From Caulobacteraceae bacterium PMMR1 (GTDB lineage: Bacteria; Pseudomonadota; Alphaproteobacteria; Caulobacterales; Caulobacteraceae): 64,000 nt of DNA. Position 1 is the first letter of the stretch. Every line of letters begins with the position of its first letter. Positions 2,964 to 38,707 of the stretch are shown here, one piece after another. Where the stretch lies: positions 372,001 through 436,000 of the forward strand of contig JPOM01000001.1 in assembly GCA_000733915.1 (NCBI GenBank), written 5' to 3'. The notes under the pieces were generated by a model. That model was given only the letters and a program-made list of their open reading frames with translations. It searched no databases and was not told the DNA's origin. A program made the translations under genes and the position numbers.

Positions 2964-3050
2964 CCTCGCGCTTCGCCCGCCATTGACCGGCGGCGCGGCG
3001 CCTGGGATTGCTCGGACGCGGCCGAGGCGCGGCGCTGAGAGGGACGCGGG

Positions 3051-4139
3051 ATGAGGCTGAACGACGGGGTGGCCCGCAACGCCCTCGTGATCGTGGCGGT
3101 GCTGATGAGCGCCTATGGCCTCTATTGGCTGCGGGCGATCCTGACCCCGTTGGCGCTCGCGCTCTTCCTGCTGATCATGGTGGACGGCCTGGCGCGCACG
3201 ATCGGCAAGGCGCTGCCCATCGCGGGGTGGGCGGCCCTGCCGCTGGCGCTCCTGGTCTCGACCGTGGCGCTGGGGCTGACCGTCTGGCTGGTGGTGGACA
3301 ACGCCGCGGGCTTCGCCACCGAGCTCGCCGCCGCCGCGCCCAAGCTGAACGAGGCGATCGCCCGGCTGGCGGGCCTGTTCAACGTGCGCGTTCCCCCGAC
3401 AGTGCAGTCGCTGATCGACCAGCTGAACCCCAGCCAGTACATCGGCGACGTGGCTCGTGCGCTGCAGAGCTTCGCGTCGGGCGCCGGCGCGGTGCTTCTC
3501 TACCTCGGCTTCCTGATCGCGTCCCGCACGGGCTTCCGGCGCAAGGTCAATGCGCTCTTCCCCGACAGCGACGACCTGGCCCACGCCAGCGCGGTGTTCA
3601 TCCGCATCCGCGACGCGGTGGAGCGCTATCTCTGGGTCCAGACGGTGACCGGCGCGGTGATCGCGATCGCCTCCGGCGTGGTCATGGCGGCTCTGGGGCT
3701 GCAGAACGCGGTGTTCTGGGCCTTCCTGATCTTTGTCTTCTGCTACATCCCGGTGATCGGCGGCCTGATCTCGGGCGTGCTGCCGCCGCTCTTCGCGCTG
3801 CTGCAGTTCGACACCTACTGGCAGGCCATCGCGCTCTTCGCCGCTCTGCAGATCATCCTCTTCGCCGTGGGCAGCATCCTGCTTCCGCGGATGCAGCAGG
3901 ACAGCCTGAACATCGATCCGGTGGTGGTGCTGCTCAGCCTGGCGCTTTGGGGCGCGATCTGGGGCATTTCCGGCATGTTCCTGTCCACGCCGCTGACGGT
4001 GATGGGCATCCTGATTCTGGCGCAGTTCCAGGGCTCGCGCTGGATCGCCGTGCTGCTGTCCGGCGACGGCGAGCCGGAGACCGAGCCGGTCCTGCCCCGC
4101 CCGGCCCACGCCGCGCCCTCGCCCCGGCCGGACGCCTGA
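3051..4139 (+). CDS. AI-2E family (PerM/TqsA-like) membrane transporter
   Basis: A 362-residue integral membrane protein. Paired hydrophobic helices lie at about 10-65, two more follow, and a dense C-terminal block of helices runs from about 195 to 330. The soluble segment at about 85-150 (FATELAAAAPKLNEAI onward) matches the AI-2E permease family, which is linked to export of autoinducer-2 or, in PerM and related proteins, to other small solutes or ion gradients. The substrate cannot be read from sequence. The C-terminal tail is Pro/Ala-rich. It begins 87 bases after the aminopeptidase stop on the same strand. Confidence 0.85.
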   Translation: MRLNDGVARNALVIVAVLMSAYGLYWLRAILTPLALALFLLIMVDGLARTIGKALPIAGWAALPLALLVSTVALGLTVWLVVDNAAGFATELAAAAPKLNEAIARLAGLFNVRVPPTVQSLIDQLNPSQYIGDVARALQSFASGAGAVLLYLGFLIASRTGFRRKVNALFPDSDDLAHASAVFIRIRDAVERYLWVQTVTGAVIAIASGVVMAALGLQNAVFWAFLIFVFCYIPVIGGLISGVLPPLFALLQFDTYWQAIALFAALQIILFAVGSILLPRMQQDSLNIDPVVVLLSLALWGAIWGISGMFLSTPLTVMGILILAQFQGSRWIAVLLSGDGEPETEPVLPRPAHAAPSPRPDA

Positions 4140-29162: not shown

Positions 29163-29471
29163 GTGGACGCTGAGGCGGCCGCTGCGCCCGAGCTGGACGC
29201 GTGGGAGTGGGGATTGGTCTCTCACGTCATGGACGACGAGGGCATGGCGCTGCTGACCGACCGGGATCTCGGCGAGCGGATCATTTCCGCGGATCGGCTC
29301 TGCATCGGCATCGTCGAATGGGCGGACGGCGCGGCCGAGGCGGAGATGCTGCGGCCCGAGGCGGTGGCGCAGCGCGCTCGGCGATGGTCGGACGTTGAGC
29401 GCTGGGCGCTCATGATCCGGGCGCGAGCCGAGGCGACTCGCTCGCGCCCCGCCCGACCGGCATCCGAATGA
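29163..29471 (+). CDS. hypothetical protein, first gene of a coupled trio
   Basis: A 102-residue acidic protein rich in Ala, Glu and Trp (LDAWEWGLVSHVMDDEGMALL), with no signal peptide, membrane segment or motif that I recognise. A GTG at 29163 is the first usable start; ATG 29229 is an alternative that would drop 22 residues. The frame is open further upstream but has no ATG there. Its stop overlaps the next ATG (ATGA). The 218 bases before it, from 28945, hold no gene that I can support. Confidence 0.6.
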   Translation: MDAEAAAAPELDAWEWGLVSHVMDDEGMALLTDRDLGERIISADRLCIGIVEWADGAAEAEMLRPEAVAQRARRWSDVERWALMIRARAEATRSRPARPASE

Positions 29472-29920
29472 GCTACCTAATCCGCCTGACCCTCGACACT
29501 GGCCATCGCTCCCGGGTCGGCCCTGAGGTGGTGACGGAGGCTAAGCGCGTTTCGCTCCGGCCGGTGATCGCGCAGGCCCTGTCGGCGCCGAGACGCCGCG
29601 TCGAGGTCCGCTCGGGCTGGCCCTATCGCCTGTCCGCGACGGCTGGAGGGCGCTCGGCCCTGATCGCCACCGTCTGGGGCGAGGCGGCGGGGCTGGAGGC
29701 GCCCGTCCTCACCTTTGGCGTGGCACGCAACTCGCGCGCCGGCGCCGGCCTCTGGCGCGTGCTGACGGATGGCCGCGCGCTGCATCCGGCCGCGACCAGG
29801 CCGCCCGCTCCCTGGCTGGCCGTGCACATGGAGATCGCCGCGCCCCTCATCCCGCGCGAGGACCTCACCGAGATGCCCGAGCTTGAGCGGGGCGTCGCCT
29901 GGACCTGGCTGGACCTATGA
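29468..29920 (+). CDS. hypothetical protein, second gene of a coupled trio
   Basis: A 150-residue soluble protein without recognisable domains. It has mixed beta-like segments (YLIRLTLDTGH, ALIATVWGEAAG, APVLTFGVAR) and a closing MPELERGVAWTWLDL. It overlaps both neighbours by four bases (ATGA each time), so the trio should be translated as one unit. Its repeated association with a transposase-like gene is unproven; here it may simply be island cargo. Confidence 0.65.
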   Translation: MSYLIRLTLDTGHRSRVGPEVVTEAKRVSLRPVIAQALSAPRRRVEVRSGWPYRLSATAGGRSALIATVWGEAAGLEAPVLTFGVARNSRAGAGLWRVLTDGRALHPAATRPPAPWLAVHMEIAAPLIPREDLTEMPELERGVAWTWLDL

Positions 29921-30345
29921 CCGAGCTCCAGCGGCTCTATCCCGACGACAAAACCTGCGCGATGCACCTGGAAAGGGCTCGTTGGCCGGACGGCTTTTGC
30001 TGCTCCCACTGCGGGGCGCCCGGCGCGCCTTACCGCTCCACGACGCGGCCGAGCGTCCTGCGCTGCCGAGCCTGCCGCAAGGATAATCGCCTAGCCGTGG
30101 GGACGGTCATGGAGGGGTCGCACCTGCCGCTGCGCCTGTGGTGCTGGGCGGCGCACCTCGTATGGGATCGGCCGGACCTCAGCGCCGCCGAGCTGCAGCG
30201 GCAGCTTGGCCTTAGCCGCTACGCGACCGCCTGGATGATGGGTAACCATCTGCGCGCTCGCGTGGCCGCTCTCGGTGCGGATCGCGTCGCCGCGGCCGAC
30301 CCTCATGCGTGCCTTAGCCTGCTAGGGCGCGCGACTGGCGACTGA
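29917..30345 (+). CDS. IS1595-type transposase N-terminal part (zinc ribbon plus HTH), DDE domain absent
   Basis: A 142-residue protein matching the front end of IS1595/ISXO2 transposases: YPDDKTCAMHLERARWPDGF, a zinc ribbon C29-x2-C32 ... C50-x2-C53, GTVMEGSHLPLRLWCWA, and a helix-turn-helix region (LSAAELQRQLGLSRYATAWMM). The DDE catalytic domain that should begin near residue 145 is missing, and nothing in the following 590 bases encodes one. It is therefore either a remnant or a domesticated DNA-binding protein. Translational coupling to two upstream genes, and the lack of obvious terminal inverted repeats, favour the latter slightly. Similar zinc-ribbon N-termini can also stand alone. 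Confidence 0.75.
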   Translation: MTELQRLYPDDKTCAMHLERARWPDGFCCSHCGAPGAPYRSTTRPSVLRCRACRKDNRLAVGTVMEGSHLPLRLWCWAAHLVWDRPDLSAAELQRQLGLSRYATAWMMGNHLRARVAALGADRVAAADPHACLSLLGRATGD

Positions 30346-30933
30346 CTTACTTCGTCCGCACGACTTAGCGATTTGGGCCCCGCTTTCTCAGAAGGCGCCT
30401 TCTTGTCGTAACGTGGCCCGGCCTGGGCCTGGCGCCTGTGCTCAGGCCTTGGCGCGGTGCGGCTCAATGCGCTGCCGCGGCGGCCCGCTCTGTCCAATGT
30501 ACAGGGCCGCTCCGAAGCCCGCGCATTCGCTAGATTAATCACCCGATGGTTGGGACAACCGACCGGCTCGCCGATGATCGCCTGAACTCGCGATCCCCGC
30601 GTCAGGGTCAACCCAGTCACCCAGCGGCGCTGCGATACGGTGATGAAGCGGTGAGTGCGCGGGCGGTGGGCCGCTACCCCCACACGTCCAAGACGGCGCA
30701 TCGAAAATGACTCGCCCGCGCACGGAGAAGCTACACCTCCCGCGGCCCGGGTTCAACCGGCCGGCTCGTTCCAGCGGAGCGGCGATGAGGCGGTGAGTGC
30801 GCGGGCGGTGGGTCGTTAACCCCACTCGAGACGGTTCAACGAATGGCTCGCCCGCGCATGCGCAAAATACACCGACCGTGGGCCGGGTTCAACCAGCCGG
30901 CTCGCCGGCGATCTCCTGAGCTTGCGATCCCGC
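30346..30933. repeat. 588-base non-coding region with tandem hairpin-forming repeats
   Basis: No supportable gene. Two degenerate direct copies, offset by 136-142 bases, span about 30630-30768 and 30770-30904. Each has GTGCGCGGGCG (30655-30665; 30797-30807), then a GTGGG/CCCAC hairpin with an 8-nt loop (30666-30683; 30808-30825), then the complement of the first arm (30713-30723; 30849-30858). Each ends in GGGTTCAACC-NN-CCGGCTCG (30749-30768; 30885-30904). A partial third end (CAACCGACCGGCTCG) is at 30556-30570, followed by a segment repeated at 30905. A 14-bp palindrome AGAAGGCGCCTTCT is at 30390-30403. This could be structured RNA, a REP/MITE-like element or island debris. Confidence 0.75.
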
Positions 30934-31836
30934 TCAGCCGCCGAGCTTCTCGCGCATCCAGTCGCCCGCGACGGCGATGGCGCGCCGGCCCTGCGCCAGG
31001 TCGCCGGCCATCCAGTGCCAGACGTGGATCATCTCCGGCCAGATCTCCAGCCGCACCTCCACCCCCGCCAGGCCCGCGGCCTCGGCCAGGCGCGTGCTGT
31101 CCGACAGCAGCACCTCTTCCGCGCCGCAGTGGATCAGAAGCGGCGCCAGGTCGCGGAGGTCGCCATGCACGGGCGAGGCCGTGGGCGTCCTTGGGTCGGC
31201 GCCCGCAAGATAGGCCCGCGCCATGTCGTCCAGCCCCGCCTTGGTGCAGAACGGATCGGACTCCGCCTTGTGCTCATAGGCGCGCCCGCCCTGGGTCAGG
31301 TCCGCCCAGGGGCTGATGCAGAAAAGGCCCGCGGGCTGGGGCAGGCCGGCGTCGCGCAGCGCCAGCGCCGTCGCCACGGTCAGGCCGCCCCCGGCGCTGT
31401 CTCCGGCGAGGACGATCCCCGTCGCGGGCGCGCCCTGGTCGAGCAGCCAGCGATAGCTCGCCACCGCATCCTCCACCGCCGCGGGATACGGATGCTCCGG
31501 GGCGAGCCGGTAGTGCGGGACGAGCGCGAAGGCCTGGGCCGCATGCCCGAGCTGGGACGCCAGGTGCCGGTGCGTGCGATGGCTGCCCATGACATAGCCG
31601 CCGCCGTGCAGATACAGGATCGCCGCGCCGAGCTGGCGGCCCTCGGGCGCGATCCGCTCGGCCGGGACCCCGTGAGCCTGGACCTCTTCGGCGACCCAGC
31701 CGTCTTGCATCGAATAGAGCGAGGCCATCGCCTCGTAGGTCGTCCGCTGTTCCTCGAGGGTCAGGGTGAGCCCGGGTTCGCGCAGATAAGCGAGGCGATC
31801 GCGCAGGGCGGCGATCTCGGGGTCCTTCCAGGCCAT
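30934..31836 (-). CDS. alpha/beta hydrolase, hormone-sensitive lipase family
   Basis: A 300-residue esterase. HGGGYVMG (77-84), HYRLAPEHPYPAA and GDSAGG with nucleophile S147 identify an HSL-type enzyme; the catalytic His is likely in EMIHVWHW near the C-terminus. The ATG at 31836 is chosen because AAGGAG lies about 7 bases upstream; an in-frame start at 31860 would place that site inside the gene. It is related in family, but not closely in sequence, to the esterase at 17109-18059. Confidence 0.9.
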   Translation of the reverse strand: MAWKDPEIAALRDRLAYLREPGLTLTLEEQRTTYEAMASLYSMQDGWVAEEVQAHGVPAERIAPEGRQLGAAILYLHGGGYVMGSHRTHRHLASQLGHAAQAFALVPHYRLAPEHPYPAAVEDAVASYRWLLDQGAPATGIVLAGDSAGGGLTVATALALRDAGLPQPAGLFCISPWADLTQGGRAYEHKAESDPFCTKAGLDDMARAYLAGADPRTPTASPVHGDLRDLAPLLIHCGAEEVLLSDSTRLAEAAGLAGVEVRLEIWPEMIHVWHWMAGDLAQGRRAIAVAGDWMREKLGG

Positions 31837-31959
31837 TGGCGGCTCCTTCGCAAGGGTCAACCGGCATCTTCAGCCGATAATCGACCGGTGTCACGACCCG
31901 CCCCGCCGCGCCGCCGCGCGCGCGGGCCCGGGGCGCGGCGCCGCCCGCCCACCAAAGGC

Positions 31960-38633: not shown

Positions 38634-38707
38634 TGGAGCGGGCAGCGGGAATCGAACCCGCACGAGCAGCTTGGGAAGCTGCCAGGCTACCACTACATCA
38701 TGCCCGC
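38634..38707 (-). tRNA. tRNA-Gly (anticodon CCC)
   Basis: Read on the minus strand: acceptor GCGGGCA pairs with TGCCCGC. The anticodon arm GCAGC-TTCCCAA-GCTGC gives anticodon CCC (glycine, codon GGG), and the T arm carries GCGGG-TTCGATT-CCCGC. The D arm TAGTGGTAGCCT fits. The discriminator is T and CCA is encoded in the DNA (38636-38634). The gene is 74 nt including CCA. It lies between the unknown membrane gene and the divergent CDF transporter. Confidence 0.96.

Follow-up and report, generated by a model that had tools for sequence, protein, structure and literature searches.

In type III toxin-antitoxin operons such as ToxIN, the RNA antitoxin is encoded upstream of the toxin gene and is co-transcribed with it. 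Mu-like phages carry a conserved RNA motif, the Mu-gpT-DE motif, which lies downstream of gpT. In ToxIN the toxin is an endoribonuclease, and the antitoxin is made up of multiple RNA repeats (PMC8860590). Among the MuF polymorphic toxins, small open reading frames (ORFs) lie behind 89.4% of 191 toxin genes and were taken as immunity genes (Jamet et al., 2017; PMC5576092). MuF C-terminal domains of the kind considered here were placed in the BECR class of RNases by Iyer et al. (2017; PMC5512222), who describe Mu gp30 as carrying an inactive MuF-C that acts 'probably via RNA binding'; their account of this domain names no RNA partner, and the terms 'small RNA', 'antisense' and 'noncoding' do not occur in the main text of that paper.

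The firm result of the present analysis is a phage RNA family without an Rfam match, copies of which are orphaned in a bacterial chromosome in which no MuF was found. The orphaned copies lie in the window, by which we mean the whole 64,000-nucleotide stretch of DNA analysed. The most likely role of the RNA is that of a specific partner of the MuF C-terminal domain (MuF-C). Word matching in the open-access literature found no published description of it, and the family is apparently undescribed.

Tandem copies in the window

Two units holding the copies c2 and c3 lie side by side in the window, with a decayed third copy, c1, nearby (Table 1). The c2 and c3 units share 79% identity over 131/125 nucleotides (E 1e-26), which is far above chance level. 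The preliminary description, which read the plus strand, had reported a pair of long-range arms in each of two copies, enclosing GTGGG-8-CCCAC with a differing loop; arms, stems and loops are all present where it placed them (P1, P2 and P2 loop in Table 1). It had also called the hairpin covarying, and this the two copies do not bear out: their stems are identical save for one C-to-T change, which turns a G-C pair into G-T, and there is no compensatory change. The folding energies are ordinary for the base composition (z-scores of -0.5 and -1.9 on the plus strand, and of -0.3 and -1.5 on the minus strand). With no pair changed on both sides and ordinary folding energies, the window alone is unable to show covariation, which emerges solely once phage homologues are added.

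Table 1. Positions of the RNA copies, their helices, predicted promoters and neighbouring features in the window.
Feature	Position	Strand	Remarks
Unit with c2	30636-30770	-	about 130 nt; minus-strand element
Unit with c3	30778-30906	-	about 130 nt; minus-strand element
c1, decayed third copy	30453..30572	-	unit about 30453-30597; GAGCCA core lost
RNA copy c2	30657..30723	-	model R3: 48.2 bits, E 2.5e-8
c2 P1	30655-30665 with 30713-30723	-	GTGCGCGGGCG with CGCCCGCGCAC
c2 P2	30666-30670 with 30679-30683	-
c2 P2 loop	30671-30678	-	ccgctacc (plus strand)
Predicted -10 box of c2	30728..30733	-	TAGCTT; p 0.005 vs random positions
Predicted -35 box of c2	30751..30756	-	TTGAAC; 17-nt spacer
RNA copy c3	30799..30859	-	model R3: 52.7 bits, E 2.6e-9 in 64 kb
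c3 P1	30797-30807 with 30849-30859	-	arm CGCCCGCGCAT at 30849-30859
c3 P2	30808-30812 with 30821-30825	-
c3 P2 loop	30813-30820	-	tcgttaac (plus strand)
Predicted -10 box of c3	30864..30869	-	TATTTT; p 0.0025 vs random positions
Predicted -35 box of c3	30887..30892	-	TTGAAC; 17-nt spacer
42-nt direct repeat beside c1	30556..30597	.	upstream of c1 on the minus strand; 83% identical to 30890-30931
42-nt direct repeat beside c3	30890..30931	.	reaches the 3' end of the convergent hydrolase gene
Convergent hydrolase gene	30934-31860	-

The third, partial recurrence that had been noted is real and longer than claimed, extending over 30517-30597, but the motif given for it is incomplete: position 30556 reads CAACC-GA-CCGGCTCG, and GGGTT is absent. 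This stretch of c1 is 74% identical to 30850-30931 on the c3 side (E 4e-8). As an RNA, c1 scores 10.9 bits on the plus strand with R1, the model of c2 and c3 (E 0.42), has no match with R3, the model built from phage sequences, and has a median identity of 0.42 to the 38 phage and prophage RNAs described below.

A genome-wide search for the unit confirmed the array and found no other locus in the host. In the 2.67-Mb genome blastn returned this single locus, the 39 remaining rows being short GC-rich matches, and the covariance model of c2 and c3 found no second locus either. A REP or MITE family, for which dispersed genomic copies are expected, had been among the earlier suggestions and is set aside on this single locus. 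Beyond the host, blastn against 60 relatives gave short GC-rich matches only, and against plasmids and phages none.

Relatives in Mu-like phages

Two convincing matches were obtained with R1, L169 and L171, in genomes of one genus in the same family; these share the core CGGGCGG[A/T]GGG..CG..AATG.CTCGCCCG. Scanning viral contigs with a pattern brought in L176 and a copy of L171. The second model, R2, found further members, the flanks of which placed the start of the element at the stop codon of MuF, the Mu gp30 head protein; the MuF identity was confirmed for L169, L180 and L181. Relatives of MuF were then fetched from viral contigs, giving 82 loci. R3, built from 38 phage and prophage sequences and none from the window, matches the RNA in 42 of these 82 Mu-like phage loci, and it detects both c2 and c3 on the minus strand (Table 1). 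Judged by this model, c2 and c3 are members of a phage-type RNA family. Among the phage RNAs, c3 comes closest to L169 and L196, and c2 to L270 and L196.

The RNA is rare in the bacterial genomes scanned, all under strict filters. Among 390 genomes of the family, R3 at E<=0.05 found matches in nine: the window's own genome, four genomes of a single genus (52-65 bits) and four with weak matches (29-35 bits). The scan of 385 genomes of the class with R2 gave three others, one of which was retained by R3 (L187/L298), and that of 229 genomes of the order with R3 gave one other. No MuF was found next to two probable members, L307 1501-1575 (+), 41.5 bits, and L298 78-143 (-), 46.6 bits; the latter begins at a contig end and has no clear promoter. 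Weak model matches were not counted (L170, L172, L173, L174, L182, L185, L188, L189, and further L183, L184 and L277-L280).

Searched against Rfam 15 at the gathering cut-off, the window yielded only a tRNA at 38637; at relaxed E values the window stretch and the phage elements (10 of the 82 viral loci scanned) gave sub-threshold matches to other places only. A match to AS1726 at 30424-30484 (-) reaches 26.9 bits against a cut-off of 50; it is GC-rich and probably due to chance.

Fold, covariation and coding strand

The fold comprises helices P1, P2 and P3, and the P1-P3 junction forms a pseudoknot with the P2 loop: the junction 3' of GAGCCA pairs with the loop in the variants CGGA/UCCG, CGUU/AACG, CGUC/GACG and UGGU/ACCG. 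We assessed this fold on an alignment (A5) of the 38 phage and prophage sequences, which holds no window sequence and from which near-copies, L181 and L243 were left out. P1, P2 and P3 are maintained by compensatory changes: of 745 cells 95.6% are paired, where shuffles give 76.7 +/- 1.0, and the covariation score of 0.548 compares with 0.194 after shuffling and with at most 0.115 in slid-partner controls; 15 of 20 pairs have changed on both sides. The rows were collected with R2, which holds both window copies, so the nested pairs lean towards that model. The pseudoknot is absent from R2; in its columns (29-34 with 66-70) 87.9% of cells are paired, and two of the four pairs show changes on both sides in the alignment. 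The covariance analysis over all copies that the preliminary description had proposed therefore finds strong covariation among the 38 homologues, and where broken stems in other copies were to speak against structure, the stems are kept, largely through compensatory changes.

On the minus strand G-U pairs outnumber A-C oppositions by 32:4, an excess that neither plus-strand RNA nor double-stranded DNA predicts and which points to a minus-strand RNA. As far as comparative sequence evidence can establish it, the element is a structured RNA of the minus strand. The earlier idea of a small RNA under structural selection is thus supported by covariation, wobble pairs, model matches and the predicted promoter, but on the strand opposite to that on which it was conceived. 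Coding on the plus strand (an ATG in the 3' arm, M[AST]RP in phages) was considered and rejected: L176 would have just eight codons, the differences between c2 and c3 have by eye no third-position bias, and pairing, wobble and promoter all indicate a minus-strand RNA.

The same observations bear on whether the element is DNA that folds in single-stranded form, such as an att/attC-like site, a REP or a MITE. Such an element would account for the palindromes and tandem copies, and it would fit the cassette-like swapping of the C-domain alongside; the excess of G-U pairs, however, favours an RNA of one strand, a promoter stands at a fixed distance from the element, and the host genome has a single locus. 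We consider this reading very improbable.

A predicted promoter for each copy

A sigma70-like promoter directed into the RNA is predicted 5-10 nucleotides ahead of P1, in c2 and c3 as in the phage loci. Compared with random places in the same locus it reaches p<0.05 in 33 of the 38 loci (those failing are L175, L169, L196, L240 and L215), its score averages 10.07, compared with 0.92 for the mirror side, and 33 of 40 cases (the 38 loci and the two window copies) have a 17-nucleotide spacer. A strict consensus scan, at 9 of 12 matches, gave no promoter in the window at c2 or c3. The prediction is thus that c2 and c3 each have their own sigma70-type promoter, with a start at the P1 stem. Support for the att-like site suggested earlier was not seen; the repeated GGGTTCAACC is most plausibly the -35 region in reverse complement.

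Position of the RNA gene behind MuF

In pattern scans, which are independent of MuF, 26 of 28 viral contigs have the RNA immediately after the MuF stop; 12 of these 28 also belong to the MuF-fetched set, and several contigs are near-copies of others. In the scan yielding 2 contigs, L176 has it behind MuF and L175 does not; a scan of 12 contigs has 11 directly behind MuF, and one of 14 has all 14, while a fourth found nothing. The RNA gene is convergent to the MuF gene in Mu-like phages, and in 40 of 42 R3-positive loci the model match begins between -4 and +25 nucleotides relative to the MuF stop. The two exceptions are L237, in which the gene is broken in frame, and L243, which has a tandem pair of RNAs behind MuF at a spacing of 138, the first copy being adjacent here also; the remaining 41 loci have a single match. 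In the published Ochrobactrum phage POA1180 the RNA lies behind gp04 (47.9 bits). Phage Mu lacks this RNA behind its gp30, the end of which overlaps the start of gp31.

Copies also occur away from MuF. The prophage of L171/L175 has the RNA behind an apparent tail-protein gene (named by eye), with MuF absent from about 20 kb of flanking sequence in each direction. A Mu-like contig, L285, has two full RNAs and a partial third at a spacing of 141 (3023-3327, minus strand), on the same strand as the GemA, gpT and protease I genes and between GemA and another ORF that has no Pfam match; no MuF was found on this 4.5-kb contig. By eye, its array contains two pseudoknot classes, CGGA/UCCG and CGUC/GACG.

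The convergent position invites comparison with lambda OOP RNA, a cis-acting antisense RNA that tunes late mRNA. Minus-strand transcription into the 3' end of MuF could act in the same way, and both the narrow placement of the RNA at the MuF stop and a promoter directed towards MuF would suit such a regulator. The conserved part, however, folds compactly into a pseudoknot, includes unpaired bases that are also conserved, and meets MuF only at its end; the L285 array is away from any MuF found; and the RNA co-varies with a protein domain. On this balance we think a cis-acting antisense or regulatory role improbable.

A second type of RNA was seen by eye behind MuF on the minus strand in L244, L246, L255, L262, L267, L261 and L233. 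Its layout is the same (P1, a pseudoknot to the P2 loop, P3), the models do not match it, and most members have TTGACT or TTGACA boxes, for example TTGACA-17-TATTCT in L261.

Association with the MuF C-terminal domain

All 62 phage-locus proteins scanned contain PF04233, and the phage loci combine this MuF domain with an exchangeable C-terminal domain, as in a MuF polymorphic toxin; in the host genome no such protein was found. The co-occurrence of domain and RNA was counted in 62 of the 82 viral loci; the 20 left out, 7 of them RNA-positive, are near-copies, loci with genes cut at a contig end or broken in frame, and L268, which has no RNA match. The models find the RNA at 35 of 51 MuF genes with the C-terminal domain and at none of 11 without it (Fisher p 2.6e-5); 42 of the 51 define the domain profile and the other nine match it at E<=0.002. 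Among the 16 domain-bearing genes without a model match, 11 are RNA-like by eye and five are not (L197, L220, L241, L256 and L257); L241 has the C-domain by profile search at E 2.9e-10, and no RNA was found there. Taking one member per 70% cluster, p is 0.11 by model matches and 0.0066 when the by-eye RNAs are added. Within a single cluster of N-terminal parts (at least 70% identity to the first member) nine loci have domain and RNA and four have neither, and on the tree of N-terminal parts the RNA label switches several times.

The divergence of the RNA follows that of the C-domain (34 loci; 32 for the protease). RNA distance correlates with C-domain distance at r 0.63, and at a partial r of 0.60 given the N-part (permutation p 0.0002), against 0.02 for the N-part given the C-domain (p 0.41); for the downstream protease the values are 0.06 given the C-domain (p 0.21) and 0.14 given the N-part (p 0.03). 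In two pairs, L214/L208 and L242/L238, the N-parts are 96-97% alike and the C-parts about 20% alike, and the RNA distances, 0.42 and 0.35, compare with 0.40 for the mean pair; in L242/L238 the N-part distance is 0.03 and the C-part distance 0.83. A polymorphic-toxin tip and its partner would diverge together in this way, although close linkage would give the same: the RNA gene touches the C-domain gene, and linkage alone could therefore explain a shared history.

The C-terminal domain is predicted to be BECR/RelE/BrnT-like. An AlphaFold model of the 118-residue domain of L204 has a pLDDT of 96, and the top rows of a VIA-align comparison with this predicted fold are RelE, BrnT, CdiA-CT, YoeB and related proteins, at Z 5.0-6.7. 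The top 14 are mostly of RelE, YoeB, BrnT and CDI type together with a 'sequence-specific ribonuclease', plus one ParDE and one unnamed Helicobacter protein; the Z scores are middling, and the weight comes from the agreement among rows. Foldseek alone gave no match for the L204 domain model at E<=0.001, and Pfam PBECR3 (PF18812) matches one of 35 domains, at E 0.009.

Of 28 RNA-bearing domains, 15 have the aligned catalytic-type His and 13 have another residue in its place, whereas all 28 keep the Ser/Thr column. These figures come from an alignment (A8) of 42 rows, which omits L254, L241 and seven of the 35 RNA-bearing proteins; the C-parts of these seven, longer or divergent, match the A8 profile at E 1e-10 to 0.002. 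With the His in only about half of the domains, many may be inactive as RNases and would need no antidote. The RNA might instead be a ligand or cofactor, with a BECR-like MuF-C serving to bind RNA so that the phage recruits its own transcript to head assembly, packaging or delivery. The replaced His beside a retained Ser/Thr suits this role, as do the tracking of the C-domain by the RNA and the RNA binding suggested for the inactive MuF-C of Mu (PMC5512222). Phage Mu itself, however, is without such an RNA behind gp30, and an RNA with its own promoter and with copies away from MuF better suits a role in trans. We hold a ligand or assembly RNA to be unlikely as the explanation, and rank it second because the catalytic His is so often lost.

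State and surroundings of the window copies

The host genome has no match to PF04233, in a search that was positive in six of 14 control genomes; c2 and c3 are therefore orphan copies, the same RNA in a different context. Both contain the GAG(C/U)CA core. In c3, P1 and P2 are kept and the pseudoknot, CGUU/AACG, is complete, while P3 is shortened, most of it being deleted. In c2, P1 and P2 are kept, P3 is changed to CGUC/GACG (by eye; the alignment places P3 partly), and the pseudoknot has one A-G mismatch.

These details can be read in two ways. The window copies may be a phage relic without present function, as the missing MuF, the decay of c1, the short P3 of c3, the mismatch in the c2 pseudoknot and the adjoining fragment of an IS1595 transposase would lead one to expect. 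On the other side, c2 and c3 have diverged by 21% and yet retain P1, P2, the core and a -35/-10 pair with 17-nucleotide spacing. We regard a relic as nearly as likely as copies that still act in the host.

The transposase fragment beside the array (29917-30345, plus strand) is the N-terminal part of an IS1595-family protein (PF12760), relatives of which have open frames of about 320 amino acids in many members of the family. Directly before it on the plus strand are two small ORFs, 29163-29471 and 29468-29920, without Pfam or PHROG match; these were considered as a remnant of a MuF C-terminus, and hhalign against the C-domain gave nothing. In seven genomes of the family whose gene order was compared, mitofilin and HemY adjoin each other, but neither the hydrolase nor the transposase fragment nor either of the small ORFs turned up next to this pair.

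Discussion

We propose that the RNA is an antidote that binds MuF-C and that the window copies are an orphan tandem array; taken as a whole this is our best explanation, held tentatively and at somewhat under an even chance. The RNA would be transcribed from its own promoter in lysogens and would bind the MuF C-terminal domain, holding or neutralising it, in the manner of a type III RNA antitoxin that occupies the place of the immunity gene in polymorphic-toxin systems. The window copies would have been left in, or captured by, a chromosome without MuF, where they could bind MuF-C brought by an incoming phage. We rank an antidote or immunity role first because of the co-exchange of RNA and domain, the independent promoter, the position, and the orphan or tandem copies. 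Among the observations against it, the link between domain and RNA is not strict, with 16 of 51 domain-bearing genes lacking a model match, and several RNAs lie away from MuF (the L175 prophage, L285, L298, L307 and the window).

The system could be a polymorphic toxin with RNA immunity, in which RNA and domain are exchanged together as a cassette and the orphan arrays of the window and L285 would confer immunity to related phages. Mu-like phages would then deliver MuF-C, and the cognate pseudoknot RNA would protect lysogens. This fuller account is possible, and we view it with more doubt than the antidote as such.

An RNA family without a match in Rfam 15 thus occupies 42 of 82 Mu-like loci at a known cargo site, the MuF C-terminus. 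Iyer et al. (PMC5512222) supposed that MuF-C binds an RNA, for which a specific candidate is now at hand, and with it one can test directly which factor neutralises MuF effectors carried in virions or acts as their partner. Should the RNA prove to confer immunity, it would do as RNA what immunity proteins do in polymorphic-toxin systems, and hosts would carry orphan arrays of it.

The known systems resemble this one in part. From the Mu-gpT-DE motif, going by its customary description, the RNA differs in location, lying behind gp30, and it has no Rfam match to such a family. It shares with type III toxin-antitoxin systems (ToxIN, CptIN) the combination of a pseudoknotted RNA with an RNase-like protein domain and, at times, tandem RNA copies (here the window, L243 and L285, against a single copy in 41 of 42 loci). 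In those systems the RNA lies upstream and is co-transcribed, whereas here its gene lies downstream in convergent orientation and has a predicted promoter to itself; the protein is part of the virion, its predicted fold best matches the RelE/BrnT type, and the RNA matches no Rfam family. The PBECR/MuF-C domains (PMC5512222) are alike in being MuF C-terminal domains with a predicted BECR-type fold. The MuF polymorphic toxins of temperate phages, as described in PMC5576092, likewise have a MuF N-terminus, an exchangeable C-terminal domain and a partner gene directly after it; in the Mu-like phages studied here, what stands directly behind MuF is the gene of a putative structured RNA.
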